Assembly: GCF_000518805.1 (NCBI RefSeq)
Contig: NZ_JAEH01000011.1
Span: 1-64,000, forward strand
Length of the DNA: 64,000 bases
Direction of reading: 5' to 3'
Source of the DNA: Shewanella waksmanii ATCC BAA-643
GTDB taxonomy: Bacteria; Pseudomonadota; Gammaproteobacteria; Enterobacterales; Shewanellaceae
The notes beneath the pieces are model-generated. The model worked only from the letters and a program-made list of their open reading frames with translations. It ran no database searches and was not told the DNA's origin. Made by a program: the position numbers and the translations under genes. This document shows, piece after piece, positions 16,358 through 37,102 of the stretch (position 1 is its first letter; each line of letters starts with the position of its first letter).

Positions 16358-17371
16358 CTAAGTAGGGTGATTGGTAGAGTCTCGTATTACCGGCTCTGGA
16401 ACAAATACTCGACCCGTATCTGATTTAATGTTTGATTTTTTGGCGATCAACAACTCTGTTGCCACTTGTGCTATGCGTTCATTGGGTTGGTGAACTGTGG
16501 TGAGTTTAGGCCAAGTTTGCCTTGAAAATGGACTATCCTCAAAGCCGACGATAGAAAGTTGGCCCGGGATATCAACTCCTTCCAAGCGTGCGGCAAATAA
16601 TGCCCCAGCAGCTATCTCATCGTTACAAGCAACAATTGCGGTCGGCTTATCTGCTTGCTCTAATAAGCTACGCGCGCCTTCTACACCTGATTCAAATGAA
16701 TATTGACCCGGGACGATAAACTGCTCATTCACTGATAGGTGGTTGTTCTGCATTGCTTGTCTAAAGCCTGCTAGACGCTCTTTGGTTGATTCATGTTGAT
16801 GATCGCCGCTTAAGAACGCAATTGATTTATGGCCAAGATCAATTAGGTGCTGCGTAATTGAAATTGCACCGTGGCGGTCATTGACCAAAACGGCAATCCC
16901 TTCTTGTTCAGGGGCTTTCTCACCGGCGATGATACGTACATAATTTGCATTGGCTTCATCTAGTGCATTGAGCACTTTTGGGTCTTCAGATAGTGGCGGA
17001 GTCAGCACCAAGCCAGACAGCCGCGCTTGCTTAACCAGTGTTGTCAATTCTTCACAGATATTAGCCGACTTTGCATCGCAGGGGTGAATCAATAATTCAT
17101 AACCTGCGGCCTTACATGACGACAAAATACCATTTTGCATATCAATGACATAGTAAGCATTGGGGTTGTCATAGACAAAACCAATCACATAGGATTTTGT
17201 GCCGGCCAAGTTACGCGCTGCAACGTTAGGTTGATAGTTTAGTGCTTCAATAGCCTGATTAACTTTGTCTATTGTGGTTTGCTTTACCGAAGGCTCATTG
17301 TTGGTGACCCTTGATACGGTTTTAATTGAGACACCAGCATGTTTAGCTACGTCATTTATTGTTACTTTCAT
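16358..17371 (-). CDS. nagR: LacI-family repressor of the NAG regulon (NagR)
   Basis: 337-residue LacI/GalR-type regulator: N-terminal helix-turn-helix (VTINDVAKHAGVSIKTVSRV) with hinge helix (NVAARNLAGTKSYVIGF), then a periplasmic-binding-protein-like effector domain (IVACNDEIAAGALFAA, SIVGFEDSPFSR). ATG 17371 (MKVTIND) is the normal family start; an upstream start would add five residues. It is divergent from the first TonB receptor. Seven palindromes with a central CG, as LacI-family proteins bind, lie across the following 25 kb. In Shewanella a LacI-type NagR controls chitin/GlcNAc genes; assignment here is by context. The likely effector is GlcNAc-6-P or a related sugar (inference). Confidence 0.85.
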   Translation of the reverse strand: MKVTINDVAKHAGVSIKTVSRVTNNEPSVKQTTIDKVNQAIEALNYQPNVAARNLAGTKSYVIGFVYDNPNAYYVIDMQNGILSSCKAAGYELLIHPCDAKSANICEELTTLVKQARLSGLVLTPPLSEDPKVLNALDEANANYVRIIAGEKAPEQEGIAVLVNDRHGAISITQHLIDLGHKSIAFLSGDHQHESTKERLAGFRQAMQNNHLSVNEQFIVPGQYSFESGVEGARSLLEQADKPTAIVACNDEIAAGALFAARLEGVDIPGQLSIVGFEDSPFSRQTWPKLTTVHQPNERIAQVATELLIAKKSNIKSDTGRVFVPEPVIRDSTNHPT

Positions 17372-17810
17372 CAAACCTACACTCATCTTTTTAGCTGTAA
17401 TGCAGATGCAAATGCTTATCTGCGCATGTTACATATTGCGATTTTGTCACCAGTGAACTGTCAATTTACAGGCAATTTTTATCATTTCAGTGCGACTATA
17501 GTGCGAACTTTTATTCTATTTAGCAATAATCAAATTTAATTTGAGTATTACTTATATTCGAAAGTTTGTTCGGTCTTTTTGGTGTATGTTTTTATTTTAC
17601 AATAATTTAACAAAGTTCGTTAATTAAAAAACCTGTAAAAAAAATGTTCAATCGAGCAAGAAATTGAGTCTGATGGTTATTTTCTTGTGGCGCAACTGTT
17701 AATTCTTGTGTAATGTTTGTACTGCGACATGACAGCGTTGTCATTTTGTTAAGAAGTCAGTTGGCGGCGCTAAAAAATAAAATAATAGAAAGTTATGAAA
17801 GGGAAACGAG
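17372..17810 (+). promoter_or_regulatory. Divergent control region nagR / TonB receptor 1
   Basis: This 439-bp A+T-rich stretch has no convincing gene. TTGTGG (17685-17690), an 18-bp spacer and TGTAAT (17709-17714) can serve as promoter for the receptor. A NagR operator lies just past its expected start point. No operator is seen close to nagR itself, so autoregulation would have to act from the shared site, about 360 bp away. Confidence 0.5.
17729..17744 (+). promoter_or_regulatory. NagR operator 1 (before TonB receptor 1)
   Basis: ATGACAGCGTTGTCAT, a 16-bp near-perfect palindrome with central CG, lies 66 bp upstream of the receptor start codon and about 8 bp past the likely transcription start, a position suited to repression. 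Confidence 0.8.
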
Positions 17811-20534
17811 ATGCGACCATCTAATTTTAAGAAGACTCTACTAGCGACGAATATTGCGCTCTTGATGAGTGGCGCAATGTCAGTATCAGTCACCGCCGCC
17901 GAAGTTGGTGCTGATGATAACATTGAAAAAATTGAAGTACGTGGTATTCGAGCTTCGCAACAAGCGAATTTGAATACCAAACGTTTTTCAGAAGGAACAG
18001 TTGATGCGATCAGCGCTGAAGATATCGGTAAGTTTCCTGATAAAAACGTAGCAGAAACACTAGCACGTATTCCTGGTATTACGATTGACCGTACTTTTGG
18101 TGAGGGTCAAGGTGTAACCATTCGTGGTGTTCAGCCAGATCAAAACTTAACGTTGCTTAATGGCCAGGCTGTAGGTACTAGCCAATGGTTTGTTTTATCT
18201 GATGCGACGCGTAACTTTAACTTCGAATTGCTTGCATCAGAAATGGTTGCGGGTCTAGAAGTATATAAAACTTCTCAAGCTGATATCGACGAAGGTGCGC
18301 TAGGTGGTACGGTTATTTTACGTACTCGTAAACCTTTAGACCTAGAAGCAAACACTTTCCACGGTTCTGTTGAAGGTCAATATGGTGACCTTTCAGAAGA
18401 GGTTGACCCAGGTCTATCTGGTCTATACAGCTGGAAAAACGAAGAAGAATCATTCGGTATCCTAGTTTCAGCATCGCTACAAAATCGTTCAGTTCGTCGT
18501 GAAACGACAGAGGATTTCGGTTGGTTCGGACCTTCAATTGAACGTATTGATCCATTAATGGAAGCGCCAGCAGGAGCAGACGAAAAAGGGGCAACACCTT
18601 GGGGTATTGGTTCTGCGCTGTTTGAGCAAGAGCGTGAACGTATTGGTTATGACATTACAGCACAGTGGGCACCAACTGATGATTTAGACATGGCGCTGCA
18701 CTACATGAGCTCGACCATGAAAGCTGATAACGTTAACTCAAACCTTATCGGTATTCCTTTCCGTGGTGTGGCGTTCCTTGGCGAAGATACTAACCCAGGT
18801 ACTGTAGACAACAGCATCGTTGAGTCTCTGGATGTTACTGGTGTTGACCATCGCCCAGGTTGGGCTCGTCATATGGCATACGATAACATCTTCCGCGATG
18901 GCTCAGAAATGTCGACTTATGTCGCCGATTTCGAAGGTAACTGGTCACTAGATTCTGGTAAGCTGCACTGGCAAATCGGTACCACTGAAGGTAAAGGCAC
19001 AAACCGTGATTTCTTCACTGAATTTTGGGTAGATGCTACTGATCCTCGTGCTTCTTTTGATTTCACTAACCCAGGTGGTACTGCACCAGCAATCGACTTC
19101 ACTTCTGCTAGCCCATGGTTGGCAAACCCAGGTGATGAGATGTGGTTAGGCGGTATTTTTGATCAGTTGAACGAAACGACAGATAAAGAGACTTATGCTC
19201 AGTTAGATTACTCTTGGTTTGTTGATTTTGGTGGCGTAAACGAAATTAAGGTTGGTGGTAAGTACCGTGACCGCTCAATGGAGCAAAACCGTTGGAAGAC
19301 TGACCTTCAAGGTCTAGCACCAACAGGTGAAGGTAGCTTAGGTGCGGCGAGTGAGTTTTGGAAAGGCGATATGGTTAATGTAGCTCACGCTAACACAAGT
19401 AACCCAAGCCAAAGCTATTTCATGCCAGATCGCGATCTAATGTATCAAGCACTTTATGACGTCTCTGAGTGTACAGCGACAAGCACTGATCTATGTCGTA
19501 ATTCGAATGTTTTCGAAGGTGCATCTTCATTTGATGTTTCTGAGAAAATCTCTGCTTTATATGCCATGGCGAAGTTCGATGTTGAAGGTGTACGCGGTAA
19601 CGTAGGTTTACGTTATGTGACGACTGATTCAACTTCTTCAGGTACTGATGTCAATAGTGGCGAAGCTGTATCGTTTGATAATGAGTACAGTGAATGGCTA
19701 CCTAGCTTAAATGTTGCTTATGATCTAGCTGATGATGTTATTTTGCGTGCAGCAGCGAGCCGTGCGTTAACTCGTCCAGCACCGTTCCAACTAGCACCGG
19801 CTGTTAACCTTACTCCTGAAACGAGTTCTGGTTCTGCAGGTAACCCATTCCTTGAGCCTCTAACAGCTGCGCAATATGAAATGGGTGCAGAATGGTATTT
19901 CACTCCAGAGTCTATTCTTGGTGTGACTGCGTTTAAGAAAGACATTAATAACTTCATCTATACGACTACTGTTTCTCAAGAGATTAATGGCCAGCAAATT
20001 GACCAGCTAAGTACTCCTGTTAATGGTGGTAATACTTCAATTGACGGTGTTGAGTTCCAACTACAGCACGCATTTGAAAATGGTTTCGGTGGTTATGCTA
20101 ACTACACATACACTGATGTAGCTGACGCGAAAGTCACTGAAGCTGCAACAGTTACAGATGCAGACGGTAATATCACTGGCGCAACAACTGTTGACCGTTA
20201 TGTTGAGCTACCTAACACCTCAAAGAATTCGTATAACATCGGTGGTTACTACGAAAATGACTTGTTCAGTGCACGTATTAACTACAACTATCGTAGCGAA
20301 TACTTCATTGCTCAAACTGAGATTGGTAACCGTTACCGCGATGCGCAACAGCAGTGGGATGCCCAAGTTAGCTGGAATGCAACTGATTGGTTAACTATTA
20401 AGTTTGAAGCACTTAACTTAACTGACGAAATTTGGGAAAACTACTACATTCGTGAGTCTGATGGTGCTCGCTTAGGCGGTACTCAAAGTGCAAACGGACG
20501 TCGTTTCTACTTAGGTGCTAGCTTCCGCCTATAA
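17811..20534 (+). CDS. TonB-dependent outer-membrane receptor 1 of the NAG regulon
   Basis: 907-residue TonB-dependent transporter. Signal peptide (ends VSVTAA), TonB-box-like IEKIEVRGIRAS at about residue 43, plug domain (VDAISAEDIGKFPDKNVAETLARIPGITI; here residues 65-95), then a 22-strand barrel rich in aromatic residues and ending YLGASFRL. There is no N-terminal signalling (STN) domain, so it is a transporter, not a sigma-factor transducer. The sequence type is the sugar-associated group common in Alteromonadales and Xanthomonas/Caulobacter. A NagR operator precedes it and a terminator follows. The likely substrate is chitin oligosaccharides (inference from regulon). Confidence 0.92.
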   Translation: MRPSNFKKTLLATNIALLMSGAMSVSVTAAEVGADDNIEKIEVRGIRASQQANLNTKRFSEGTVDAISAEDIGKFPDKNVAETLARIPGITIDRTFGEGQGVTIRGVQPDQNLTLLNGQAVGTSQWFVLSDATRNFNFELLASEMVAGLEVYKTSQADIDEGALGGTVILRTRKPLDLEANTFHGSVEGQYGDLSEEVDPGLSGLYSWKNEEESFGILVSASLQNRSVRRETTEDFGWFGPSIERIDPLMEAPAGADEKGATPWGIGSALFEQERERIGYDITAQWAPTDDLDMALHYMSSTMKADNVNSNLIGIPFRGVAFLGEDTNPGTVDNSIVESLDVTGVDHRPGWARHMAYDNIFRDGSEMSTYVADFEGNWSLDSGKLHWQIGTTEGKGTNRDFFTEFWVDATDPRASFDFTNPGGTAPAIDFTSASPWLANPGDEMWLGGIFDQLNETTDKETYAQLDYSWFVDFGGVNEIKVGGKYRDRSMEQNRWKTDLQGLAPTGEGSLGAASEFWKGDMVNVAHANTSNPSQSYFMPDRDLMYQALYDVSECTATSTDLCRNSNVFEGASSFDVSEKISALYAMAKFDVEGVRGNVGLRYVTTDSTSSGTDVNSGEAVSFDNEYSEWLPSLNVAYDLADDVILRAAASRALTRPAPFQLAPAVNLTPETSSGSAGNPFLEPLTAAQYEMGAEWYFTPESILGVTAFKKDINNFIYTTTVSQEINGQQIDQLSTPVNGGNTSIDGVEFQLQHAFENGFGGYANYTYTDVADAKVTEAATVTDADGNITGATTVDRYVELPNTSKNSYNIGGYYENDLFSARINYNYRSEYFIAQTEIGNRYRDAQQQWDAQVSWNATDWLTIKFEALNLTDEIWENYYIRESDGARLGGTQSANGRRFYLGASFRL

Positions 20535-20666: not shown

Positions 20667-22184
20667 ATGAAGAATATTCCAAAGCAAATCGTTATATTAG
20701 GTGGTGGAACAGCCGGGTGGATGACAGCTAATTTGATGCACAAACGCTGGCAAGGTTTGGGTGTAGAAATAACATTGATAGAGTCGACGGTAGAGGGGAC
20801 CGTCGGGGTTGGCGAAGGGACAACACCTTTTATCCAAAGCTTTTTCGATTCCATTGATGTTAGCGAGTCCGAATGGATGCCAGAGGCTAATGCAACCTAC
20901 AAATGTGGAATAAGCTTCCCCAATTGGTCTACTAAGACTGGTTACGATAACTATTTTCATCCTTTTTACTCTCACGTTGATACTGCTCAGGTAGAACATT
21001 TTTTTAATAACGCTAACTTTCGCCGAGAAGGCATGGATACTCATGCTCACCCAGATGACTATTTCGTCACGTCCGCTTTGGCTAGGCAATGTCGTGCACC
21101 GATAAGCCAGGTATCGAAAGGGCAGCGGTTAGATTACGGTTACCATTTTGATGCTGAGCTATTAGGACGTTACTTAAAGCGCATCGGCACAGGTCGTGGA
21201 GTAAAACATGTCGATGATAAGGTCGTTGAAGTTGTTGGTGACAATAAAGGAAATATAGATAGGCTGATTCTTGCCGGAGGAGAGCATGTCTATGGTGATT
21301 TTTTTGTTGATTGCTCAGGCTTTAAAGGTTTATTAATACAGCAAACATTGGGTGAGCAGCTCAAAGACTATAGTCACTATTTATTCAACAACCGGGCAGT
21401 CGCTATTCAAACTCCGCTGTCGCAACAAGATTCGTTATCTTCTGAAACAGTTTCGCAAGCATTGAGCGCTGGCTGGGCTTGGAAGATCCCCTTAGCCAAT
21501 CGCTTTGGTAATGGTTATGTGTATAGTGGCGAGCATATAACCGCTGAACAAGCTGAAACAGAACTAAGAGCACATTTAGGTGACGCGAGTAAAGATGCTA
21601 AAGCACTGCACTTACAATGGAAGGTAGGCAGAGTCAGCAATCATTGGAAAGGAAATTGTGTTGCTATAGGCCTTTCCCAGGGCTTTTTAGAACCTCTTGA
21701 AGCGCCAATGTTAAATGTGATTCAGCAGACCCTTGAGCAGTTCGTAAAGTACTTTGAAACAGGCGAGTTTACAAATCAATATCAGACAATATTTAATGAA
21801 GAGGTCAATCACCTAATCGATGGTACTCGAGATTATTTACAAGCTCACTACCTACTAAATAGCAGAGTAGACTCCCCTTATTGGCGAGAATGTCGCGACA
21901 ACCCAGTAATGTCAACTTCGCTGAAAAACATCATCAACGGTTGGATTTCCACTGGTTCTTTCGATGCCGTATTGCGTGATAACTTGCATAATCAAGCTTA
22001 CTTTAAAACATCATGGTATTGCATTTTGGCGGGCATGGGCCATTTCAATCCAGTCTCAAAGCGTGGCTCACGTATCGCTGCACGAAACCACCAGAAAGCC
22101 AAACAAGCTTGTGAAGTCGAGGCGAGTCGTTATGTTGATCATCAACAACATATCGACAGTCAGAAAGCAGCAAGCAATGACTAG
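20667..22184 (+). CDS. Flavin-dependent halogenase-like protein 1
   Basis: 505-residue member of the tryptophan halogenase family (FAD-dependent monooxygenase fold). Visible: FAD loop ILGGGTAGWM (residues 10-19), catalytic Lys79 in NATYKCG at the same number as in PrnA, WxWxIP in GWAWKIPL, and the glutamate motif FLEPLE. These are the residues needed for hypohalous acid formation and transfer, so an active enzyme is possible, though the substrate is unknown. ATG 20667 has GGAAAC upstream; ATG 20652 is an alternative. It lies after TonB receptor 1 and converges on halogenase 2, sharing the four bases CTAG of both stop codons. Confidence 0.88.
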   Translation: MKNIPKQIVILGGGTAGWMTANLMHKRWQGLGVEITLIESTVEGTVGVGEGTTPFIQSFFDSIDVSESEWMPEANATYKCGISFPNWSTKTGYDNYFHPFYSHVDTAQVEHFFNNANFRREGMDTHAHPDDYFVTSALARQCRAPISQVSKGQRLDYGYHFDAELLGRYLKRIGTGRGVKHVDDKVVEVVGDNKGNIDRLILAGGEHVYGDFFVDCSGFKGLLIQQTLGEQLKDYSHYLFNNRAVAIQTPLSQQDSLSSETVSQALSAGWAWKIPLANRFGNGYVYSGEHITAEQAETELRAHLGDASKDAKALHLQWKVGRVSNHWKGNCVAIGLSQGFLEPLEAPMLNVIQQTLEQFVKYFETGEFTNQYQTIFNEEVNHLIDGTRDYLQAHYLLNSRVDSPYWRECRDNPVMSTSLKNIINGWISTGSFDAVLRDNLHNQAYFKTSWYCILAGMGHFNPVSKRGSRIAARNHQKAKQACEVEASRYVDHQQHIDSQKAASND

Positions 22185-23689
22185 CGGTGTATTTTAGTCA
22201 GTTGTTTTTCATGATTCACGAAATACTGGTTAGCCATTTTTTCACAGTAAGCAAGCGCTTGGGCGGTTGGTCCAGCTATGTTTGTCGGTGCTGCATTTTC
22301 AGGGAAGCGACCCATTCCTGCTAAGATGCAGTACCACGAAGGCCTAAGGTAGACTAACTCTTGCTTATATTTAGTTAATACTTGTTCAAAGTCCGCACCA
22401 CTGTCCCAGGTATGTATGAGTTCCGCGAGAGTATCTGAAATGATGCTGTCTTCTCTACATGCATGCCAATAATCGCTATCAGACCGTGAGTTTAGTTTGT
22501 AATGGGCAACAATATAATCTTTAACTCCATCGAAAGTTGCATTGATTTCGTCGTTGTACTGCTGCTGTTGTTTGGCTTGATCAAGTTTGGCATTCACTCT
22601 GGCAATAAACTTTTCTAGGGTAAATTGGATTAGCATCAGTGCCGTAGCCTCTAGTGGCTCGATAAACCCCTGGGATAGGCCGACTCCAAGACAGTTTTTG
22701 TGCCAATGGTTTTCGACTCTTCCAACTTTCATTTTTAGGTGTTTTGCATTAACGTCAGCATCGACCAAATTGAGTTTTTGTCTCAGTTCAAGCTCTGCAC
22801 TGTCGGCGCTTTGAAAAGCATCACTGTAGACGTAGCCGTTGCCGACACGGCTTGTTAACGGGATTTCCCATGCCCAACCATTAGTCAATGCTGTCGAAAC
22901 CGTATGTGGTGTTATCTTATCTAAAGGGATCGCTTCTGAAGGTATCGCAATGGCCGCGTTATTAAATAGACTACGGCTAAAACTTTGAAACGGTACTTTA
23001 AGGGCTTTATCCAATAGTAAACTGCTAAAGCCAGTACAATCGATATAGAGATCGGCGGTCAATGCCCCCGATTTTTTACATTGTACTCGGTCGACCTCAC
23101 CTTGTTGATTCGTTATCACTTCAGCCACATGATCAATGACATGGTGTAATCCAAGTTGTTTTGCTCGTTGCTTTAAAAAGCTACCTAGTTTTCCTGAATC
23201 AAAGTGGTAACCGTAATCAATATCGAATGGTAGTGATTGGTTAGTAATTGGAGAATGTTTTAACTGAACTAACTGTGAAGCAACGAAATAGTTTTCTGGG
23301 TGAACATCTGCTTCATGTCCTCTTCTTCGCAGTCCACAATTATGAAAGAACATCTCTGCAGGTTTTAGATCGAATTGAGAAAAGAAAGGATGAAAATAGC
23401 TTTCATATCCTTTTACTGTTGACCAGTTTGGAAAGGTGATACCCGCCTTATATGTGGCATCACAAGCTGTCATCCATTCCTTTTCTTCTATGCCTAAGTG
23501 AGAAAAGTACTGTTTTAGGTAAGGGGTTGACCCTTCACCTACACCAATTATGCCGATATCTTCCGACTCTACTAAGGTGATTTTTGTATTATCCCCCCAA
23601 GCGGCTAACAAACTTGTTGCAGCCATCCAGCCTGCTGTCCCACCACCAACAATTAATATTGAGCGTGGGACTTGCGTGGTCATCGACAT
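22181..23689 (-). CDS. Flavin-dependent halogenase-like protein 2
   Basis: 502-residue paralogue of halogenase 1 (shared pattern FPNWSTVKGYESYFHPF around residue 88). FAD loop IVGGGTAGWM (residues 13-22), catalytic lysine in DATYKAG (Lys81), GWAWEIPL and FIEPLE are all kept. The ATG at 23689 is chosen because GAGGA stands 7 bases before it; an upstream GTG at 23710 is in frame. It is the second gene of a minus-strand unit behind the SapC-family gene (54 bp gap) and so is probably driven from operator 3. Its 3' end overlaps halogenase 1. Confidence 0.88.
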   Translation of the reverse strand: MSMTTQVPRSILIVGGGTAGWMAATSLLAAWGDNTKITLVESEDIGIIGVGEGSTPYLKQYFSHLGIEEKEWMTACDATYKAGITFPNWSTVKGYESYFHPFFSQFDLKPAEMFFHNCGLRRRGHEADVHPENYFVASQLVQLKHSPITNQSLPFDIDYGYHFDSGKLGSFLKQRAKQLGLHHVIDHVAEVITNQQGEVDRVQCKKSGALTADLYIDCTGFSSLLLDKALKVPFQSFSRSLFNNAAIAIPSEAIPLDKITPHTVSTALTNGWAWEIPLTSRVGNGYVYSDAFQSADSAELELRQKLNLVDADVNAKHLKMKVGRVENHWHKNCLGVGLSQGFIEPLEATALMLIQFTLEKFIARVNAKLDQAKQQQQYNDEINATFDGVKDYIVAHYKLNSRSDSDYWHACREDSIISDTLAELIHTWDSGADFEQVLTKYKQELVYLRPSWYCILAGMGRFPENAAPTNIAGPTAQALAYCEKMANQYFVNHEKQLTKIHR

Positions 23690-23743
23690 ATTTTGGTCCT
23701 CAAACAGCACTATCTAACAGAGATAATAAGAGAAGCGAGTTGG

Positions 23744-24466
23744 TTATTTTTGTTTTGCATCATATTGATTTTGCTTCGCTATCAGTCTTGGTACCTGGTG
23801 TAGAGACGCTCTATGAGCATAAATTACGGGTAGTAAGCCTTTCTCTTTCAGCTCGATGAGTAACTCGTTTGACATATTATTGACCGTTTCATCATTGACC
23901 ATATAAATACCGCCAATATTGATATTGTTTTCTTCACTTGCGAGTTTAACGGTGAGCTGCTGAGGACTTAGCAAGTTTTTCTCTTCTAAATATTTTGAGA
24001 TGGCACTTGTTTGTTGTGTCATCGCCGCCATATCAAGTAAGGCATTGGCACGTTGTTTTAAGTACTCAGACTGTTCGCCACTCAGTGTGAATAGAGGGTT
24101 GCCTTCGGTTTCACTGACTAAGTTACTGTCTTCATCAATGCAGATCATGACATCATCACTATTCTCATTGGCTTTCATTAACGACAGTGGTGCATTGTTA
24201 AAGCCAAGAGGTTTAAGCGGGGCATCCCATTGTGGTGTTTGGCAGTATAAGTTGATGCCATTTTTGAGCCCCATCATTGCAACGGGCATAAACTCCTCGG
24301 TTTTCGCATTCTTGATAAATACGATTGGGTACTCTGAAGAAAGGGTAATAATTTCTCTAATCACTACAGGAACAATATGCTCCGTTGAGAAACGACTGTA
24401 ATCAGTCGACTCTTTGACGTTGGTTTTTAGATGTTTGTTTGACGTAAGCGGGACAATTTGTGTCAT
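23744..24466 (-). CDS. SapC-family protein
   Basis: 240-residue soluble protein with no signal peptide, matching the SapC family (named after an S-layer-associated gene): the N-terminal YSRFSTEHIVPVVIREI segment, SEYPIVFIKNAKTEEF near residue 50, and EGNPLFTLSGEQSEYL near residue 130. The biochemical role is unknown. Genes of this family recur beside TonB receptors and halogenase-like genes in sugar loci of marine bacteria, as here. It is the first gene of the minus-strand unit with halogenase 2, 160 bp downstream of a perfect NagR palindrome. Confidence 0.8.
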   Translation of the reverse strand: MTQIVPLTSNKHLKTNVKESTDYSRFSTEHIVPVVIREIITLSSEYPIVFIKNAKTEEFMPVAMMGLKNGINLYCQTPQWDAPLKPLGFNNAPLSLMKANENSDDVMICIDEDSNLVSETEGNPLFTLSGEQSEYLKQRANALLDMAAMTQQTSAISKYLEEKNLLSPQQLTVKLASEENNINIGGIYMVNDETVNNMSNELLIELKEKGLLPVIYAHRASLHQVPRLIAKQNQYDAKQK

Positions 24467-24625
24467 GGGGAAGACCTAATATTTTAGCTACTTGTAATAG
24501 CTTATTGTTTTAGAAGATGTCTGTAATCACTCATAGGGCAACCACAGTAGAACTTAAAATTTTTCAAGTTAACGTTTTATCATGTATATCTTTTGTTAAC
24601 CACCAATTGCTACATATAATTTGTT

Positions 24626-24641
24626 TTGACAGCGCTGTCAA
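24626..24641 (-). promoter_or_regulatory. NagR operator 3 (before the SapC-halogenase 2 unit)
   Basis: TTGACAGCGCTGTCAA is a perfect 16-bp palindrome and the most symmetric of the seven sites. It lies 160 bp upstream of the SapC-family start. Confidence 0.78.
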
Positions 24642-25050
24642 TTGCGGTGCTGTTGGTACATCAAATTCGCTCGATTCAGTATCGGGTTGCTCGGTATAAG
24701 TAACGACTTAATACTTGGGTTGCACCTTGTACCAAATGTAACAAATTTAATCATATTATTGGGACTATAATCGCATTAATTGGTACTTTACTATCAAAAA
24801 ATGTAGTTGTTTGTGGTTTAGAATAATACCTTGAATATCGTGTTAATTTATTGGGTTTTATTCTGCATTCGCTGTTAATTTTATCTTTTTCATCAATAAC
24901 CTGCTGTGTAATGATGCCTTGTTACTTTTTTTTAATGTCACACGATTCTCTAGTTGATTTTGATGCTTTAGTCGCTTCAATTTAGGTGTTAAGCTTTGGT
25001 TAAAAACATGTAGCGAACGCCATTTTAGTTGTGTAGTATTTAAGCTGTAC

Positions 25051-25066
25051 ATGACAGCGTTGTCAT
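25051..25066 (+). promoter_or_regulatory. NagR operator 2 (before TonB receptor 2)
   Basis: ATGACAGCGTTGTCAT, identical to operator 1 and at nearly the same distance (61 bp) from the receptor start. The flanking TTGTGTA element about 16 bp upstream is also shared with operator 1. Confidence 0.8.
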
Positions 25067-25127
25067 TCTCGGTTGGGGGTGGTCATGAGCATAAAAATGA
25101 TAAGAAAGCATAATAAGGGATATTGAG

Positions 25128-28112
25128 ATGCGACGATTTAACTTTAAGAAAAGTGTTCTAGCGACCAGCATTGCGGTTGTAATGACAAGCGGAGTAGCTC
25201 CTCTTGCTGTTGCGGCTGATGAGACTACAGCGTCTGATGAAAATATTGAGGTCATAGCGGTTCGAGGTATTCGTGCCAGTACTAAAGCCAGTATCAACAC
25301 CAAGCGATTCTCTGATTCTCAAGTAGATGGTATTTCTGCTGAGGATATTGGTAAGCTTCCAGATGTCACCATTGCAGATTCATTGCAACGTATTACCGGT
25401 GTTCAAGTAGAAAGAACTGCAGGCGAGAGTGGTCCAGTTCAAATCCGTGGTCTGCCTCAAGTTGATACCATGATGAATGGTGAGATCTTCTTAAGCGCGA
25501 CAACGATTGATTCATCAACCACTGATTTAGGTGATTTACCATCACAACTTTTTTCTGGTGTTGATGTTTATAAAACTAAAAATGCAAGTAATGTCGGCGC
25601 GGGTATGGCCGGTACTATTGATCTGAAAACTCGTCGTCCATTTGATATGGATACTGGATTTACATTCGCAGGTGGCGCGGAAGCGACACAAGGTTCTATT
25701 AGCGAAGAAACAGATCCAACGTTCCACGGTCTAGTATCATACAATGATGATAAATTCGGTGTTCTACTTTCTGCCGTAACATCTCAAGCGACGCTAGCAA
25801 CCGATTACAACGGTTTTAACGACACGTCAGAAAACGGCGGTTTGGGTTGGACTGGTAGCAGTGTGACCGATGGCGTTAACCACATCACTCCTCATGGTTT
25901 CACCGCGTTTAATAAGCAAGAAGAGCGTGACCGTGATGCATTACAATTTAGTCTTCAAGGTGATTTGGGCGAAGGTTTTGAGTTAACTTTTGACTATTTC
26001 TATACCAATCAAGAGCGCTTCAATGCGCGTCGCGGTTTTAACCACAACAGTCGCTGGCAGGGTTATCAAAACTATGCAGACGCAACTAGCTTTACCGGCA
26101 GTGGCTACACTCACCTAGAAACAGGTGAAGAGTGGCGTGCAGTAAACGGTTATCAAATGCGTCCTTACCGTATGCAGTCGTTTACTCAGGTTAACATTAA
26201 CGAAGAAAAATCTGAGAACTTCAACTTAGAGCTGAATTATGACAATGGTGGCGCGTTAACTGGTCAAGTTCGTGTAACTCACGCGACTGCGAAAGCAACC
26301 ATGCGTCATGCTTACGGTGAAGGCGATATCCTCAGTATTGATGAAGGGACACTAATTACTGGTCCTGGTGGATTAACTCCAGCTGAATATTGTAACAATG
26401 GCGAAGAGATTGTAGGTGACCAAGGTGGTTGCTACGGTAACTACTCAACTGGTATCCAAGATTCACAATTCCTGATCACTCATTCTTCTGCTGGTGCCTA
26501 CCCACACTTTGGTGGTTTTGACCAGATGGTTAACGGTGGTAAAGGTATGATGAGTGTTGCCGATTATATGGCAGACAAAGATTCATACCATATTGGTGCG
26601 TTCTCATCAGAAGGTAACACTGATGATAGAGGCGAGCTTGATACCTTTAGCACAGCATGGAACTATGCATTTGATGATCTAAGTTTCATCAGTAGTGTTG
26701 ATTTCGGTCTGCGCTATATGGAGCGTAGTGTTGATCATGACCAATTCACTTATACCTCTGATTTTGGTGGTGGATGTGATATCGCTCAGTGGAAAGCGGT
26801 TGACCAAGCCTACGGTGCAGATTGTGTCGGTGTTGAAGGCACGGGTGAGATGGTTAACGGTGAATGGGTACCTTATACACTACTTCCACCTACTGGAATT
26901 GATGAAGTCACGACAGCATCATTTCAAACTAACTTTGGTGGCGTAACGGGTATTCCAGGAGTTTGGTCAATTGATCCAAGTAACTTCCGTGACCCACGTG
27001 CATTCCATGAAAGAGTATTTGGTAATGTTGCTCGCACTGAAAATGGTGGTTCAACTTACGATGTTAAGCTCAAAGAAATGAGCTACTTCCTACAAGCGAA
27101 TATCGATTGGGAAGGCCTAACAGGTAACTTTGGCGTTAAAGTCGTAAATACTGATTTGTATGTTAAGCAAAATCTAGTTGGACCTAACTTACCGCATTCA
27201 GGTTTAGGACCTGATATTGGTGATGTGGTTACTGAGCGTAGCTATACCGATTATCTACCACGTGTGAACTTAAACTACGGTATCACTGAAGATCTTATCG
27301 TTCGTGGTGCTTACTCGAAAGAGATGATGCCACTCGATCTATCTGAGTGGGGTGAAGGTAAAGTCGTTGGTAATGCGTATAACGCAGAATGTGACTGTAT
27401 GCGTGTGGTTAACGGTCAGCTAAGGGGTAACCCAGAGCTAGATCCACTACGTTCAGACAACTACTCGCTTTCTGCTGAGTGGTACATGGCTGAAGCATCA
27501 ATGCTATCTGCTGGTCTATTCTTAATTGAAATTGAGAGTTTCACTACACCTGGTATCACCATGGTAGATGAGCCAGATTCAGACGGTGTTAAACGTGGTC
27601 CTTGGCCTTTCACTACAACCCTACAGGGAACTGGTGGCGAAGTTAAAGGCTTTGAATTAGCGGGTCGTGTTGCTTTTGGTGACTATACCGATATTGCTAT
27701 TCTAAATAACTTTGGTTTTGATGCTAACTACACCTACACAGATAGTAGCCGTGAAGACAAAGACGTATATGGCAATGATCTACCGTTCATTGGTATGTCA
27801 GAAGACACATACAATGCGGTACTTTGGTATGAGCAAGAAGAGTTTTCAGCGCGTATTGCATGGAACTCACGTAGCCCACGTCTGATCACTCCAGGTTCTG
27901 CTGGAACGGGCGGACAGTCTCTTTACCAAGATGACTATTCGCAGTTAGATGTGAACGTGACCTATAACCTCAATGAGAACTTTAGCTTCTATCTCAACGG
28001 TTCAAACATTACCGAAGAGATCCAGGAAACTTATGTTGAGTTCCCAGAGCAGAAAGCATTCCAGAATGCTTATGAAGCACGTTATACATTGGGTGCACGT
28101 ATGATTTTCTAA
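25128..28112 (+). CDS. TonB-dependent outer-membrane receptor 2 of the NAG regulon
   Basis: 994-residue TonB-dependent transporter, a paralogue of receptor 1: very similar leader (MRRFNFKKSVLATSIAVV), TonB-box-like IEVIAVRGIRAS, plug (SAEDIGKLPDVTIADSLQRI), then a barrel ending in Phe (TLGARMIF), the usual C-terminal residue for BAM recognition. It is about 90 residues longer, with extra extracellular loops carrying cysteine pairs (around NAECDCMRV and YCNNGEEI). No STN domain. It is controlled by operator 2 and followed by a terminator. It probably takes a different ligand from receptor 1 (inference). Confidence 0.92.
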   Translation: MRRFNFKKSVLATSIAVVMTSGVAPLAVAADETTASDENIEVIAVRGIRASTKASINTKRFSDSQVDGISAEDIGKLPDVTIADSLQRITGVQVERTAGESGPVQIRGLPQVDTMMNGEIFLSATTIDSSTTDLGDLPSQLFSGVDVYKTKNASNVGAGMAGTIDLKTRRPFDMDTGFTFAGGAEATQGSISEETDPTFHGLVSYNDDKFGVLLSAVTSQATLATDYNGFNDTSENGGLGWTGSSVTDGVNHITPHGFTAFNKQEERDRDALQFSLQGDLGEGFELTFDYFYTNQERFNARRGFNHNSRWQGYQNYADATSFTGSGYTHLETGEEWRAVNGYQMRPYRMQSFTQVNINEEKSENFNLELNYDNGGALTGQVRVTHATAKATMRHAYGEGDILSIDEGTLITGPGGLTPAEYCNNGEEIVGDQGGCYGNYSTGIQDSQFLITHSSAGAYPHFGGFDQMVNGGKGMMSVADYMADKDSYHIGAFSSEGNTDDRGELDTFSTAWNYAFDDLSFISSVDFGLRYMERSVDHDQFTYTSDFGGGCDIAQWKAVDQAYGADCVGVEGTGEMVNGEWVPYTLLPPTGIDEVTTASFQTNFGGVTGIPGVWSIDPSNFRDPRAFHERVFGNVARTENGGSTYDVKLKEMSYFLQANIDWEGLTGNFGVKVVNTDLYVKQNLVGPNLPHSGLGPDIGDVVTERSYTDYLPRVNLNYGITEDLIVRGAYSKEMMPLDLSEWGEGKVVGNAYNAECDCMRVVNGQLRGNPELDPLRSDNYSLSAEWYMAEASMLSAGLFLIEIESFTTPGITMVDEPDSDGVKRGPWPFTTTLQGTGGEVKGFELAGRVAFGDYTDIAILNNFGFDANYTYTDSSREDKDVYGNDLPFIGMSEDTYNAVLWYEQEEFSARIAWNSRSPRLITPGSAGTGGQSLYQDDYSQLDVNVTYNLNENFSFYLNGSNITEEIQETYVEFPEQKAFQNAYEARYTLGARMIF

Positions 28113-28138
28113 TAGAAATCATTTTAATTGGTGTATCT

Positions 28139-28166
28139 AAAGGTGCCGCAGTCGCGGCACCTTTTT
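28139..28166 (+). terminator. Terminator after TonB receptor 2
   Basis: Perfect stem AAAGGTGCCGC / GCGGCACCTTT, loop AGTC, followed by T. It isolates the receptor gene from halogenase 3, as in the first block. Confidence 0.85.
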
Positions 28167-28318
28167 GCGTTTTTATTGTCACAGAATACACATTTAATTT
28201 ATTGATAATATTTGATTATTAGTCCATTTTGTTGTCTAGTGATTAAATGCTGCAATGGTGTGATGTATCGCCGATAGGGCGGGTTTGTTGATGTTATATT
28301 TACTGAGTGGTAGCTAAA

Positions 28319-29839
28319 ATGGAAAGTTCAGCGAATGAAGTTAACTCGATTGTAATTGTGGGTGGTGGCACATCTGGTTGGATGACGGCTGCGGCCCTCA
28401 GTCAGCACTTTAAGGATAAGCCAGTCAGTATCACCTTGGTTGAGTCTTCACAAATTGGAACCATAGGGGTTGGAGAAGCGACGATTCCTACCTTAAGGCG
28501 CTTCTATGCCAAGCTGGGACTAACCGATACTGACGTACTAAAAGCGACTAATGCAACGTGCAAACTGGGTATTGAATTTAAGGACTGGTCAACGTTAGGT
28601 GACAGTTTTATTCACCCTTTTGGGATCTTTGGTCAAGGTACTAAAGAGACCGATTTTCACCACTATTGGCTGCGTGCGATGCAAGCGGGGCATACCACAG
28701 CATTCTCAGAGTACTCATTAGGTGTGCAACTTGCTCGGTCCAATAAGTTTACTTACCCCAGTACCAAGCCAGAAAGCCAATTGGAGGTCTATGACTGGGC
28801 GCTGCATTTTGACGCGTCACTGTTTGCCGAGTTAATGAAGCAAGTGGCTCTGCAAGCCAATGTAATGGTCATTGACGACAAAATTGAGCAAGTTAATACC
28901 GATAATCACAATGGACACATTTCGTCACTACAGCTTGCCAGTGGTGGTCAAGTCAAAGGCGATCTATTTATCGATTGCTCAGGTTTTCGTTCGATGCTGT
29001 TACAGCAGACATTAAACACAGGCTATTGCGATTGGAGCGAGTGGTTGTTATGCGATAAAGCGGTTGCTGTGCAGACAAAAGCGAGTGACGATCCGATTGC
29101 AAGAACCGTCTCCCATGCCCAGAAAGCTGGGTGGATATGGAAGATCCCACTGCAACATCGCACTGGTAATGGTCATGTATATTCGAGCCAGTTTATGAGC
29201 GAAGAGCAAGCGGAGCAATGCCTATTACAACAGCTAGATGGGCCTGTATTGCATGAACCTAGACACTTTAGTTTTACCCCAGGCCGTGCACAAAAAGCCT
29301 GGAACAAAAACTGTATCGCAGTGGGTCTATCTTCAGGCTTTTTAGAACCGCTAGAAAGCACCAGTATTGCACTAGTTGAAACCGCTATTGAAAAAATATG
29401 CCTATCTTTTCCAGCTAATCAATATACAACTCGTACAGTCGATAAGTTTAACGATGTTACTGCGGCCGAATATGAACGTGTCAGAGACTTCATTATATTG
29501 CACTACAAAGCGACCCAACGAAATGACTCACCTATGTGGCGTTATTGTCAGCAGATGGACATTCCTCAATCGTTAACCGATAAACTAGCGGCTTACCAAA
29601 AGAATGGGACAATGCTTGCTTATCCATGGGAGATTTTTGGCAAAGACAGTTGGCTGGCTATCTACCATGGCTTTGGCTTAATCCCAGAGCAATACGCGAC
29701 AAAAGCCGATAATATGGAGCAAGCTTACCTGCTTAAACATATGCATTATATGAAATCGAGAGTCGCTCAAAGCGTGAATAGCGCGCCGACCCACAAACAA
29801 TTTTTGTATGAAACCTGTGGATTTGAAGCTGGGAAGTAA
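28319..29839 (+). CDS. Flavin-dependent halogenase-like protein 3
   Basis: 506-residue tryptophan halogenase-family protein. FAD loop IVGGGTSGWM (residues 13-22), catalytic lysine in NATCKLG (Lys82), GWIWKIPL and FLEPLES are present. It is clearly closer to halogenase 4 than to 1 and 2: both have LGI-F--W, HPF, HHY and LARSNKF/LARTNRF patterns. ATG 28319 follows GAGTGG; an in-frame GTG is at 28307. No NagR operator is seen in the 194 bp after the receptor terminator, so it depends on read-through or an unseen promoter. It is convergent with halogenase 4, with 57 bp between. Confidence 0.87.
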   Translation: MESSANEVNSIVIVGGGTSGWMTAAALSQHFKDKPVSITLVESSQIGTIGVGEATIPTLRRFYAKLGLTDTDVLKATNATCKLGIEFKDWSTLGDSFIHPFGIFGQGTKETDFHHYWLRAMQAGHTTAFSEYSLGVQLARSNKFTYPSTKPESQLEVYDWALHFDASLFAELMKQVALQANVMVIDDKIEQVNTDNHNGHISSLQLASGGQVKGDLFIDCSGFRSMLLQQTLNTGYCDWSEWLLCDKAVAVQTKASDDPIARTVSHAQKAGWIWKIPLQHRTGNGHVYSSQFMSEEQAEQCLLQQLDGPVLHEPRHFSFTPGRAQKAWNKNCIAVGLSSGFLEPLESTSIALVETAIEKICLSFPANQYTTRTVDKFNDVTAAEYERVRDFIILHYKATQRNDSPMWRYCQQMDIPQSLTDKLAAYQKNGTMLAYPWEIFGKDSWLAIYHGFGLIPEQYATKADNMEQAYLLKHMHYMKSRVAQSVNSAPTHKQFLYETCGFEAGK

Positions 29840-29896
29840 TTGTTGTGTTAGCACGCTAGCCTGTTAATCGTCAAAGCTAACAGGCTAGGGTGTGGT

Positions 29897-31402
29897 TTAC
29901 CGCGTTGCAGCGCAGTGTTTAGCGATAAATTGCTCATGGGTCATGGCTTGGTTTGCTGCCTGTGTGATAGAGCGTTTCATTTGTTCTAAGTTGTTGATTA
30001 TGACTTGGTGCTCTACCGAGTCTGCACGGGGATCGTACCTTTTTGGCGTAACCCCGAAAGCATGGTACATAGTAAGCCAGCTTGCCGCCTCAAATGATTC
30101 ACTTTCATGAATAATGATATGGCCTCGGCTTTCAAATAACGCGATTTTATGTGCCAATGTGTCAGGGACAGGCATAGACTGACAATAACGCCAGAATTCG
30201 CTGTCTTGGCGGTCTGTGAGCTTATAGTGCAAGATAATAAAGTCCCTTACGTGCTCAAGTTCCGCATTATGTAGGCGGTTTACTTCTGCGATATCGTGTT
30301 GATTAAAACTAGTGTCTGGAAAGAAGTCTAGCAGCTTAGCAATCGCACTTTGGATTAATGAAATACTGGTCGATTCAATGGGTTCTAAAAAGCCGCTAGA
30401 GAGACCCACGGCAAAGCAGTTTTTATTCCAAATTTGTTTGCGTCTTCCCGGTGTAAAACGAAATTGTTTGGCTTGATTAGAGGGTTGACCCTCGATATTC
30501 CCAAGTAGGTTTTGCATCGCATGGTCATCATCTTCAAATTGGCTGGCGTAGATATAGCCATTTCCCATTCGGTGTTGCAGCGGTATGCGCCATTGCCAAC
30601 CATTACTATGTGCAATGGCCCGCGTATAGGGCGCAGGTTGTTGTTGCAGTTCGCTCTGTACAGCGATGGCTTTATCGCATAGTAACCACTCACTCCAGTC
30701 TTCATAACCAGTTTCTAGTGCTTGCTCAATCAGTAATCCTTTAAACCCTGTACAGTCGACAAAGAGATCGGCAGATACTCGTTGGCCGTTGGTTAGCGTT
30801 ACTGATTCAATAAAGCCGCTTTCTGCCTGACAATTTACCTGCTCAATCTTACTATCAATATGCACAACCCCCTGTTTGGTTGCATGTTGCTTGAGTAGGT
30901 TTGCATAGAGACCGGCATCAAAGTGATACGCATAAGAATAATCAGCTAATGGTGTCGCGGGTTGCGGGTGCGGCTGAGCAAAGCGGTTAGTGCGTGCTAA
31001 CACACTTGAAAAACTGTAATCACTTAGCTCCGTAGCAAACCCCGATTGCGATAACTTGTGTAAATAGTGATGAAATGGTACGCCATTGACGGGGATACCA
31101 TAGTCGCTAAAAGGATGAAAAAATGGCTGTTGGTTCTGAGTCCATTGCTCAAACTGTATCCCCAATTTGAAGGTGGCTTGGGTGGCTTTAATGAATTCAA
31201 GTTCATCAAGTCCAATTTGATGATTAAACTGCACAATACTGGGGATAGTCGCTTCGCCGACACCAACGGTAGCTATGTCAGTTGACTCAATAAGTGTGAT
31301 GTTCAGCTGCTTTCCCTGCGCATACTTGATTAGGCTTGCAGCTGTCATCCAGCCTGCCGTGCCGCCACCCAGAATCACTACATCTTTAATTGGAGCTGTC
31401 AT
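29897..31402 (-). CDS. Flavin-dependent halogenase-like protein 4
   Basis: 501-residue paralogue of halogenase 3. FAD loop ILGGGTAGWM (residues 10-19), catalytic Lys79 in QATFKLG, GWQWRIPL and FLEPIES are conserved. AGGTGAAAGG precedes the ATG. It follows the TSUP membrane protein gene on the minus strand (45-bp gap), so both are likely expressed from operator 4. Of the glutamate motifs in the four proteins, this one alone has Ile for the Leu between Pro and Glu. Confidence 0.87.
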   Translation of the reverse strand: MTAPIKDVVILGGGTAGWMTAASLIKYAQGKQLNITLIESTDIATVGVGEATIPSIVQFNHQIGLDELEFIKATQATFKLGIQFEQWTQNQQPFFHPFSDYGIPVNGVPFHHYLHKLSQSGFATELSDYSFSSVLARTNRFAQPHPQPATPLADYSYAYHFDAGLYANLLKQHATKQGVVHIDSKIEQVNCQAESGFIESVTLTNGQRVSADLFVDCTGFKGLLIEQALETGYEDWSEWLLCDKAIAVQSELQQQPAPYTRAIAHSNGWQWRIPLQHRMGNGYIYASQFEDDDHAMQNLLGNIEGQPSNQAKQFRFTPGRRKQIWNKNCFAVGLSSGFLEPIESTSISLIQSAIAKLLDFFPDTSFNQHDIAEVNRLHNAELEHVRDFIILHYKLTDRQDSEFWRYCQSMPVPDTLAHKIALFESRGHIIIHESESFEAASWLTMYHAFGVTPKRYDPRADSVEHQVIINNLEQMKRSITQAANQAMTHEQFIAKHCAATR

Positions 31403-31447: not shown

Positions 31448-32332
31448 TTAGGGGTACATATGGATTCCGGAGATGATAATCCAAAATGCGAAAAATAATT
31501 TTAGCGATCTTACCGGTAAGTACAGTGCTAACTTTTTGGCTAGAATTCCACCGAGGATGGCTCCCGGGCCGGCAAACAGCACAATATTAAAATATGCATC
31601 ACTGCTAGGGTTTAAATGAATTGGGCTCACAGACCAAACCGTAATCGCGGTAACCATGACGCCAACCGCAACGGCCAAGGTTGGTGAGAAGCGACTTAAT
31701 ATCAGGTAAATCACCAATATTTCTCCCACCCCAACAGATAACCAAGCGGTGATCAGTCCACCGACAAAGCTCAATATGATTAGATGGCTTACCTCAAGGG
31801 GAGTAAGTGAGCGAGTAGAGTGCTGCTTTTGTGGGCGTAAGCCACTGTAGACAATGGCAATCCCTAAAATAATTGAGAACAGGCTAAAGCTTAGCTCCAA
31901 TGAAGCTGGCGCTGAAATACTCAGTAACTCTGCACACCAAATTCCCATAATGGATACAGGGGCGCATAGGCCGACTAAAATGGGTAGTAGCTGTGCAGAT
32001 TGTTTAAATTCAGCCTGTTTGAAGTGACGCCACCACGCGATGGAACCTGCGGTCATACCGAAACATTGAATCGCAAACGATGTTGATACGCTCTGGCTAT
32101 GGCTAAGTTCAAGGCTATTAAATACCGGAATAAAGATAACTCCACCGCCAGCACCTGTGGAGTTTGCGAAAATGGCGCCAGTTATCCCTAACATCACGTA
32201 GTGAAGGTAACTTTTGATTACATCCAATGTGTCAGTAAATTGCATCGCCCAGATAAACCAAATGGATACTAAGCCTGCGAGTAAAATGAGATGGCGCTGA
32301 TAGTCTTTTATTTTATTGAATTTTCTTATCAT
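31448..32332 (-). CDS. TSUP (TauE/SafE) family membrane transporter
   Basis: 294-residue polytopic membrane protein, about eight hydrophobic segments, with family-typical regions GAIFANSTGAGGGVIFIPVF (near residue 60) and FVGGLITAWLSVGVGEILVI. TSUP proteins move small anions such as sulfite, sulfonates or sulfoacetate; the substrate here is unknown. It opens the minus-strand unit with halogenase 4, with a NagR operator 67 bp before the start. Export of an acid, halide-like or sulfonate product linked to the halogenase is speculation. Confidence 0.82.
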   Translation of the reverse strand: MIRKFNKIKDYQRHLILLAGLVSIWFIWAMQFTDTLDVIKSYLHYVMLGITGAIFANSTGAGGGVIFIPVFNSLELSHSQSVSTSFAIQCFGMTAGSIAWWRHFKQAEFKQSAQLLPILVGLCAPVSIMGIWCAELLSISAPASLELSFSLFSIILGIAIVYSGLRPQKQHSTRSLTPLEVSHLIILSFVGGLITAWLSVGVGEILVIYLILSRFSPTLAVAVGVMVTAITVWSVSPIHLNPSSDAYFNIVLFAGPGAILGGILAKKLALYLPVRSLKLFFAFWIIISGIHMYP

Positions 32333-32398: not shown

Positions 32399-32414
32399 TT
32401 GACAGCGTTGTCAT
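32399..32414 (-). promoter_or_regulatory. NagR operator 4 (before the TSUP-halogenase 4 unit)
   Basis: TTGACAGCGTTGTCAT, 66 bp upstream of the TSUP start on the minus strand, the same spacing as operators 1 and 2 to their genes. Confidence 0.8.
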
Positions 32415-32554: not shown

Positions 32555-32570
32555 ATGACAGCGTTGTCAT
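32555..32570 (+). promoter_or_regulatory. NagR operator 5 (leader upstream of the hexosaminidase)
   Basis: ATGACAGCGTTGTCAT preceded by TTGTGTA, as at operators 1 and 2. It lies about 690 bp before the hexosaminidase ATG, so transcription from here would first produce a long leader that includes the hairpin at 32712-32767. Confidence 0.75.
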
Positions 32571-33004: not shown

Positions 33005-33172
33005 ATGCCAAAGCAGGGTGGTTACCATAAAATTTGCCGTAAATGTTTTAAGGTAAAGCTACGCAGCATTATCGCGTGGTTGCTAAGTGATAAATACAAA
33101 GACAATATTAGCAAACTTATTTTGGCCACTGGCATAGATAGGACTGCACCCCATCAGCGTGTTAGGTATTGA
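33005..33172 (+). CDS. Possible small basic protein, unknown
   Basis: A 55-codon frame beginning MPKQGGYHKICRKCFKVKLR, very basic with a CxxC pair. It has no clear ribosome-binding site and I do not recognise it. It may be a remnant of a larger gene or chance. Confidence 0.15.
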   Translation: MPKQGGYHKICRKCFKVKLRSIIAWLLSDKYKDNISKLILATGIDRTAPHQRVRY

Positions 33173-33257
33173 TGGGAGTGTCAGGGGGGGAACCAAGGGC
33201 TCCAGTGAAAGTACACTGAATTGTCAGTGGCTTATTAAACACGTTGAGAGGGTAGAG

Positions 33258-36020: not shown

Positions 36021-36036
36021 ATGACAACGCTGTCAT
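36021..36036 (+). promoter_or_regulatory. NagR operator 6 with promoter before nagK
   Basis: ATGACAACGCTGTCAT, 96 bp before nagK. Its first half (ATGACA) can serve as -35, with TAACAT at 36045-36050 as -10 (18-bp spacing), so a bound repressor would cover the promoter. Confidence 0.8.
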
Positions 36037-37035: not shown

Positions 37036-37102
37036 TTGACTAGCGGCTTGATAGATTCTATCAGGCCGCTTTGCTAATGCTGACACAGGAATGGCCGTCA
37101 GA

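Follow-up and report, generated by a model that had tools for sequence, protein, structure and literature searches.

Among the closest described relatives of the proteins considered here are the flavin-dependent halogenases (FDHs) BrvH of Brevundimonas BAL3 (6frl) and Xcc4156 of Xanthomonas campestris (6y1w), both of which act on indole in vitro according to the accessible parts of the two reports (PMC5945002; PMC7336383). BrvH has low activity on indole, which its authors consider doubtful as the natural substrate (PMC5945002, accessible text). Neither enzyme halogenates free tryptophan, and a peptide-like substrate has been suggested by their authors (PMC7336383, accessible text). The second system that bears on this work is the N-acetylglucosamine (GlcNAc) regulon of Shewanella oneidensis, in which the LacI-type regulator NagR binds upstream of nagP, nagK, mcp, the receptor gene SO3514 and cbp, and deletion of nagR raises all of them (PMC3223726, accessible text). 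Here, a stretch of 64,000 nucleotides from Shewanella waksmanii ATCC BAA-643 (contig NZ_JAEH01000011.1, positions 1 to 64,000; hereafter the window) was analyzed. It holds a GlcNAc-chitin uptake locus of the LacI/NagR type that carries two units of TonB-dependent receptor (TBDR) and halogenase-like genes, one consisting of TBDR1-FDH1 with SapC-FDH2 and the other of TBDR2-FDH3 with FDH4 (Table 1). An earlier, sequence-only reading of this DNA had described four catalytically intact halogenase-like flavoproteins in a chitin/GlcNAc regulon. The four genes are real and all belong to family PF04820, with scores of 415, 416, 589 and 614 bits for FDH1 to FDH4 against a cut-off of 21 bits, which is loose, since a few unrelated flavin adenine dinucleotide (FAD) proteins in control genomes also exceed it. 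Altogether, that observation holds up as real and is informative, but it overstates one point (that the sites are intact in all four proteins) and misplaces one emphasis (chitin).

This halogenase class belongs with TonB receptor loci, and not with biosynthetic clusters or with one sugar. Two sets of loci were compared. The family set comprised 58 genomes and 90 loci (87 fetched loci, the window and two further loci of its own genome) with 119 FDHs of at least 400 amino acids (aa); its loci were the listed profile matches above 340 bits, with matches below 60 bits left out. The named set consisted of the best 80 of 588 relatives from a genome scan with a seven-protein alignment, and it leans towards the query. 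A TonB receptor was found in 89 of the 90 family loci (88 by hidden Markov model (HMM), L087 by Pfam), the remaining locus (L108) starting at a contig end, and in 70 of these best 80 named loci (69 by HMM, L190 by its plug domain); six of the ten receptor-less named loci come from stretches no longer than 10.2 kb. In the family set, 100 of the 119 FDHs stand in a same-strand run downstream of a receptor, and among the 145 FDHs of the named set 73 are downstream on the same strand, 30 divergent and 22 within six genes; these per-FDH positions come from a gene caller that favors long open reading frames (ORFs) and missed receptors at some loci, while the locus counts use a repaired receptor detection. 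By locus type, the family loci divide into 30 Nag, 28 mal-type, 28 TBDR3-type and four others. The genome of the window encodes seven full-length FDHs, all within the loci of four of its eight TIGR01782-class receptors above cut-off; of the three that lie outside the window, two are at a TBDR-SapC-Cupin_8-DUF6445 locus and one at a GH13 amylase-TBDR locus.

The absence of a biosynthetic gene cluster, also noted earlier, holds for the part of the window that was scanned: no family typical of polyketide synthases (PKS), nonribosomal peptide synthetases (NRPS) or ribosomally synthesized and post-translationally modified peptides (RiPP) matched any of the 39 ORFs scanned with Pfam, out of 52 ORFs of at least 120 aa, the other 13 being shorter (120-193 aa) or overlapping. 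Four such genes in one regulon, to which weight had been given, are not a unique case. Among the 30 family Nag/GH20 loci, 23 have one FDH, six have two and one has four, the largest number, but 39 of the 80 named loci hold at least two FDHs (two to five) and eight hold four or five. In a sample of the phylum, a PF04820 match above cut-off was present in 118 of 299 genomes, a figure that is not a halogenase count, because the cut-off admits other FAD proteins (it was also passed in five of 14 control genomes, Escherichia coli included) and at most five candidates per genome were scored. Among the openly licensed full texts listed, judged by title and the start of the abstract, no description of a receptor-halogenase link was found. 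As the search was limited to such papers, the link is not claimed to be unpublished.

Receptors and halogenases also resemble each other in their descent. Distances between receptors and those between the first FDHs of the same loci gave a Mantel r of 0.69 over 126 pairs (those present in both trees, of 128; permutation maximum 0.08), and of 0.55 over the 50 named pairs (permutation maximum 0.16). Among the 126 pairs, TBDR2 and FDH3 share the same five nearest loci, namely L180 (Niveispirillum), L181 (Caulobacter), L182, and L183 and L235 (both Microbulbifer); at 1.1-1.5 substitutions per site, the distances are large. Locus L169, at which no receptor was detected, also falls in the FDH3 clade of the full FDH tree, and FDH4 joins this clade with a support of 0.993. 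The relatives of TBDR1 are the family Nag receptors. Because TBDR2 and FDH3 have the same nearest loci, the second half of the locus represents a receptor-halogenase type known from other genera, and our guess is that it was acquired as one piece.

That the halogenases lie in a GlcNAc/chitin regulon, as first proposed, is supported by operator sites and by the Nag pathway genes. The palindrome TGACARCGYTGTCA occurs at six exact sites in the window, and a seventh, one-mismatch site lies upstream of nagP. With up to two mismatches allowed, ten sites were counted against 0.98 expected, and none of 100 shuffles reached ten. The whole genome of 4.97 Mb has 11 exact sites and none for the reversed pattern. 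Operators precede all four predicted halogenase transcription units (TBDR1-FDH1, SapC-FDH2, TBDR2-FDH3 and TauE-FDH4/GH20), co-transcription within these units being predicted from strand and spacing. The 661-base gap between SapC and TBDR2 (24467-25127) contains two operators 425 bases apart, which suggests two divergent promoters. A site with at most one mismatch lies within 450 bp upstream of 29 of the 30 family Nag-locus receptors, the two of the window included, compared with two of 60 receptors at other FDH loci. The S. oneidensis regulon likewise has a LacI-type NagR, nagK/nagB-II/nagA/nagP and a TonB receptor, SO3514 (PMC3223726, accessible text). That paper does not use the word halogenase in its main text, whereas the present locus has two receptors and four FDHs.

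The pairing of receptor and halogenase recurs at GH13 (maltodextrin-type) and other receptor loci, both in the same genome and in the family, so the link to chitin looks incidental, which suggests that the FDHs serve the receptor system rather than chitin. Moreover, a locus of a family genome (L334) has the LacI regulator, a TBDR1 ortholog, GH20, nagK, nagB, nagA and a nagX-like gene, with neither FDH nor SapC; judged by gene content, therefore, the FDHs are dispensable for the sugar pathway. The proposed role for chitin-derived aromatics or a GlcNAc ligand was not borne out by these two observations.

At the level of the protein, the motifs listed in the sequence-only reading are letter-perfect in all four FDHs. 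The FAD loop reads GGGTAGW in FDH1, FDH2 and FDH4 and GGGTSGW in FDH3; the WxWxIP motif reads WAWKIP, WAWEIP, WIWKIP and WQWRIP in FDH1 to FDH4, and the glutamate motif is EPLE in FDH1 to FDH3 and EPIE in FDH4. In the longest ORFs the catalytic lysines are K84 (FDH1), K88 (FDH2), K86 (FDH3) and K79 (FDH4); the numbers given before (79, 81, 82, 79) are correct when counted from internal methionine starts. The longest ORF of FDH1 spans 20652-22184 on the forward strand, with an internal ATG at 20667. In PrnA-type enzymes, the residues that follow the EPxE glutamate bind the halide. Judged by letters against a Ser-Thr-(Gly/Ser) segment, the STS of FDH3 and FDH4 fits, and the APM of FDH1 and the ATA of FDH2 deviate. 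Catalytic intactness is thus well supported for FDH3 and FDH4, where the site is Ser-Thr-Ser as in BrvH, but the term is too strong for FDH1 (Ala-Pro-Met) and FDH2 (Ala-Thr-Ala), whose halide site may be weakened and whose preference may have changed.

These deviations were placed among 264 PF04820 proteins of 420-620 aa, 119 from the 90 family loci and 145 from the 80 named loci, FDH1 to FDH4 included. EPxE is kept in 243 of the 264, and the lysine and both WxW tryptophans are present in every one of these 243, far more than chance would give. Their post-glutamate triplets are STS (160), ASA (30), ATS (22), STG (10), STA (9), ATG (6), ATA (4), STN (1) and APM (1). The single APM is FDH1 itself and the ATA group includes FDH2, while an alanine directly after the glutamate is found in 63 proteins, most of them from the family set (59 of its 119 FDHs). 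Because lysine and glutamate are so strongly conserved, a real FADH2/O2-dependent function of the FDHs is likely. EPxE is missing from 21 proteins, of which 20 form one tree group of paralogs in multi-FDH arrays; the catalytic lysine, too, is missing from 14 of these 20. One degenerate paralog of this kind is common in multi-halogenase arrays (e.g. L208:3464-4945, L172:4941-6470 and L220:4849-6414), and it could perhaps be a non-catalytic partner.

By sequence, FDH3 and FDH4 can be assigned to the BrvH/Xcc4156 type, as BrvH is their closest solved relative (578 and 521 bits, respectively, the best matches in the PDB) and they lack the Trp4 patterns. Both of these patterns, which are given for free-tryptophan halogenases in the accessible part of PMC8269204, are absent from all four FDHs, FDH3 having only the fragment YHG. 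The ESTS segment is common to BrvH, FDH3 and FDH4. A second FDH gene adjoins that of BrvH (PMC5945002, accessible text), as multiple FDHs stand together here; the main text of the BrvH paper (PMC5945002) makes no mention of TonB, and FDH3 and FDH4 are instead found beside a receptor in a NagR-type regulon. For FDH1 and FDH2 the assignment is more mixed. They too lack the Trp4 patterns, but their best PDB sequence match is AbeH (8fov; 318 and 321 bits, both tied with other tryptophan halogenases), and they differ from tryptophan halogenases of the AbeH/PyrH type (8fov, 2wet) in having neither Trp4 pattern and no Ser-Thr-Gly after the glutamate. An AlphaFold2 model of FDH1 (40-sequence alignment; predicted local distance difference test (pLDDT) 88.6) was matched by VIA-align first to Xcc4156 (6y1w; Z 46.9, root-mean-square deviation 2.3 over 479 residues, 30% identity), in a tie with AbeH (Z 46.0). 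All of rows 1-48 of that comparison are tryptophan-halogenase-type enzymes by title (Z 39.8-46.9), and the model thus predicts an overall halogenase fold for FDH1. The halide region of Xcc4156 has Thr-Asn (PMC7336383, accessible text) where FDH1 has Pro-Met. Among the four proteins, FDH1 and FDH2 are 43% identical, and FDH4 is 46% identical to FDH3, 34% to FDH1 and 32% to FDH2.

What these enzymes modify can be proposed with differing degrees of confidence. The explanation that we favor, tentatively and with considerable doubt, is that they are BrvH-type halogenases with a polypeptide as predicted substrate, perhaps the receptor before its export. The FDHs would be cytosolic, as no signal peptide is apparent at their N-termini on crude inspection, and they would be induced together with the receptors once GlcNAc relieves the repressor. 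FADH2 would be supplied by a general flavin reductase; two reductases of family PF01613 are encoded elsewhere in the genome. An enzyme-bound HOX or lysine haloamine would then be formed, and FDH3 and FDH4 should brominate as BrvH does. With less certainty, the target would be an aromatic side chain of a polypeptide, as opposed to a sugar or free metabolite; the co-encoded TonB receptor, modified before it is exported, or a protein that partners with it would be the most economical candidate. The case for the receptor is an indirect one, built on linkage, on correlated descent, on the peptide-like substrate suggested in print for BrvH and Xcc4156, and on companion families that look like oxygenases. 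A broader version, which we regard as unlikely, is that dedicated flavoenzymes of the BrvH type, joined at some loci by SapC and Cupin_8/DUF6445 partners, would halogenate or otherwise oxidize aromatic side chains of a widespread class of outer-membrane sugar receptors while these are still in the cytosol and not yet exported, each receptor lineage having its own modifying genes. The survey ties the BrvH/Xcc4156 class to TonB receptors and so narrows the search for its native substrate, in agreement with the earlier remark, and with the accessible parts of PMC5945002 and PMC7336383, that this substrate is unresolved. If receptors or their partner proteins did carry halogenated residues, the cell envelope of bacteria would contain a protein modification that nobody expected there.

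Several results weigh against a receptor substrate. Linkage can reflect joint regulation or transfer in the absence of a shared substrate, and the Mantel coefficients include shared species history. For 20 of the 145 named-set FDHs there is no receptor within six genes, or they lie near a contig end. With two receptors and four FDHs, the present locus offers no one-to-one pairing; FDH4 clusters with the first FDH of related loci and not with the second, and the halide-site residues of FDH1 look altered. The receptors themselves were also compared. If modification fell on one conserved aromatic residue maintained solely for it, that residue would be expected to decay once the FDH is gone. In the TBDR1 clade, 17 FDH-linked receptors share 412 invariant residues, including 10 Trp and 24 Tyr; the two FDH-less members have both lost three of the 412 (P, T and T), none of them Trp, Tyr or His, and 16 pseudo-loss pairs lost 0-2 each. 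This test is weak, because the two FDH-less receptors are sisters and count as one loss event. In two wider clades, with 26 and 30 FDH-linked receptors, no invariant residue was lost with the FDH. Residue enrichment was assessed on receptors from which identical sequences (linked 163 to 153, unlinked 62 to 58) and a contig-edge receptor (L295) had been removed, and 20 of the unlinked ones (phylum-level loci within L277-L305) were dropped as possibly mislabeled because of short flanks, some having an FDH about 2 kb away, which left 38. Gly-Trp occurs 2.18 times per linked receptor (153) and 0.74 times per unlinked one (38), and the G-W-G type 0.86 and 0.37 times; as evidence this enrichment was rejected, since G-W-G in eight close pairs was up in three, equal in three and down in two. 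Trp content is no different, and Tyr content slightly lower, in FDH-linked receptors. Linked receptors are clustered on the receptor tree (10 label changes versus at least 28 in shuffles), so descent confounds residue-enrichment tests of this kind.

A small-molecule substrate comes next in probability, and we consider it possible but rather unlikely: the FDHs would halogenate a diffusible compound of the indole or phenolic type, as a signal, a defense or a detoxification step switched on with sugar uptake. The in vitro indole activity of BrvH and Xcc4156 in the accessible reports (PMC5945002; PMC7336383) agrees with it, as do the proximity of FDH3 and FDH4 to BrvH among PDB sequences and the conserved catalytic residues. 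However, the low indole activity of BrvH and its authors' doubts (PMC5945002, accessible text) speak against it, as do the lack of PKS/NRPS/RiPP-type families among the 39 scanned ORFs and the fact that linkage to the receptors of different loci is tight and correlated, which would not be expected for a free metabolite. Oxidation without halogen, for example hydroxylation of a receptor-linked substrate by halogenase-fold flavoproteins of which FDH1 and FDH2 would be derived forms, seems unlikely. The EPLEAPM and EPLEATA segments deviate at halide-site positions, and the group of 20 paralogs that lack EPxE, 14 of them also without the lysine, means that the fold can outlive the halogenase residues. 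Yet lysine and WxW persist in all 243 EPxE-bearing proteins, FDH1 and FDH2 included, and alanine often follows the glutamate (63 of 243) and so may be tolerated.

Modification of the transported glycan or of a chitin-derived aromatic is very improbable. Its one attraction is the co-regulation with GlcNAc genes, as judged by the operators, whereas the same pairing at GH13 and other loci and the Nag locus L334 without FDH or SapC point away from it; in addition, no FDH signal peptide is apparent (crude inspection), whereas receptor ligands reach the periplasm, and sugars are not electron-rich aromatics. Just as hard to credit is a RiPP pathway in which the FDHs, like MibH, would act on a small ribosomally made precursor peptide from a neighboring gene. 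Cupin_8, DUF6445 and FDH companions presumably resemble tailoring enzymes, but no widely shared family of small ORFs was found: in a scan of ORFs of at most 110 aa with a site like a ribosome-binding site, within 6 kb of an FDH and with little overlap with larger ORFs, no cluster was present in more than 11 of the 90 loci, the largest two (11 and 10 loci) being confined to one locus type each. One six-member cluster resembles, by eye, the PII protein GlnB.

Two further candidates for a halogenase-dependent feature of the receptors were tried and set aside. In one alignment column, with the 20 later-dropped unlinked receptors still included, Trp is present in 36% of linked and 0% of unlinked receptors; the 55 Trp residues concerned all fall in a single unbroken block of the receptor tree, and the column is therefore confounded by descent. 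The other was the signal peptide, in which two of the three residues lost in the TBDR1 clade lie; this is a single event, and LAT is retained at that place in other FDH-less receptors. In many Nag receptors the signal peptide varies unusually little (MRPSxFKKxxLATNIA; window positions 17811-17870), and two halogenase-less orthologs (L322 and L324) differ at P3 and at the T of LATN.

Table 1. Positions of the receptor, halogenase-like and sugar genes and of the NagR-like operators in the window.
Feature	Position	Strand	Remarks
LacI-family regulator, probable NagR	16358..17386	-	PF00356 and Peripla_BP_3; adjoins NagR-like operators
NagR-like operator TGACAGCGTTGTCA	17730..17743		67 bp before TBDR1
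TBDR1, TonB-dependent receptor, TIGR01782 class	17811..20534	+	667 bits (cut-off 310)
FDH1, PF04820 flavoprotein	20667..22184	+	EPLEAPM; predicted to be co-transcribed with TBDR1
FDH2, PF04820 flavoprotein	22181..23710	-	EPLEATA; predicted to be co-transcribed with SapC
SapC-family protein, PF07277	23744..24466	-	209 bits
NagR-like operator TGACAGCGCTGTCA	24627..24640		upstream of SapC-FDH2
NagR-like operator	25052..25065		upstream of TBDR2-FDH3
TBDR2, TonB-dependent receptor, TIGR01782 class	25128..28112	+	503 bits
FDH3, putative BrvH-type halogenase-like flavoprotein	28307..29839	+	EPLESTS; PF04820, 589 bits
FDH4, putative BrvH-type halogenase-like flavoprotein	29897..31402	-	EPIESTS; PF04820, 614 bits; predicted to be co-transcribed with TauE
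TauE/SafE-family membrane protein	31448..32332	-	PF01925, 81.5 bits
NagR-like operator	32400..32413		between TauE and GH20
NagR-like operator, second	32556..32569		between TauE and GH20
GH20 beta-N-acetylhexosaminidase	33159..35906	+	PF00728, 317 bits
NagR-like operator	36022..36035		upstream of nagK
Nag gene run (nagK-like, nagB-II, nagA, nagX-like, nagP)	36118..42047	+	NF046059 and NF046060 over cut-off; starts: nagK-like 36118, nagB-II 37091, nagA 38168, nagX-like 39374, nagP 40746
NagR-like operator, one mismatch	40582..40595		upstream of nagP

The nagX-like gene is labeled from its position alone and has no Pfam match. A matching arrangement is found at a named Shewanella locus (L231). 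Among the companion genes, a sister locus encodes DUF6445 and Cupin_8 proteins between and after its halogenases (L011:6846-7586 and L011:9169-10188), in which HxD and a distant His can be seen by eye, as in Fe(II) oxygenases; we take such companions to resemble protein hydroxylases or tailoring enzymes. Both SapC copies of the genome adjoin halogenases, and SapC is present at 22 of 30 Nag loci, 24 of 28 TBDR3-type loci and none of 28 mal-type loci; its AlphaFold prediction, made from four sequences, has a mean pLDDT of 46. By a manual count of the locus map, 16 of the 30 family Nag loci encode a TauE/SafE-family membrane protein.

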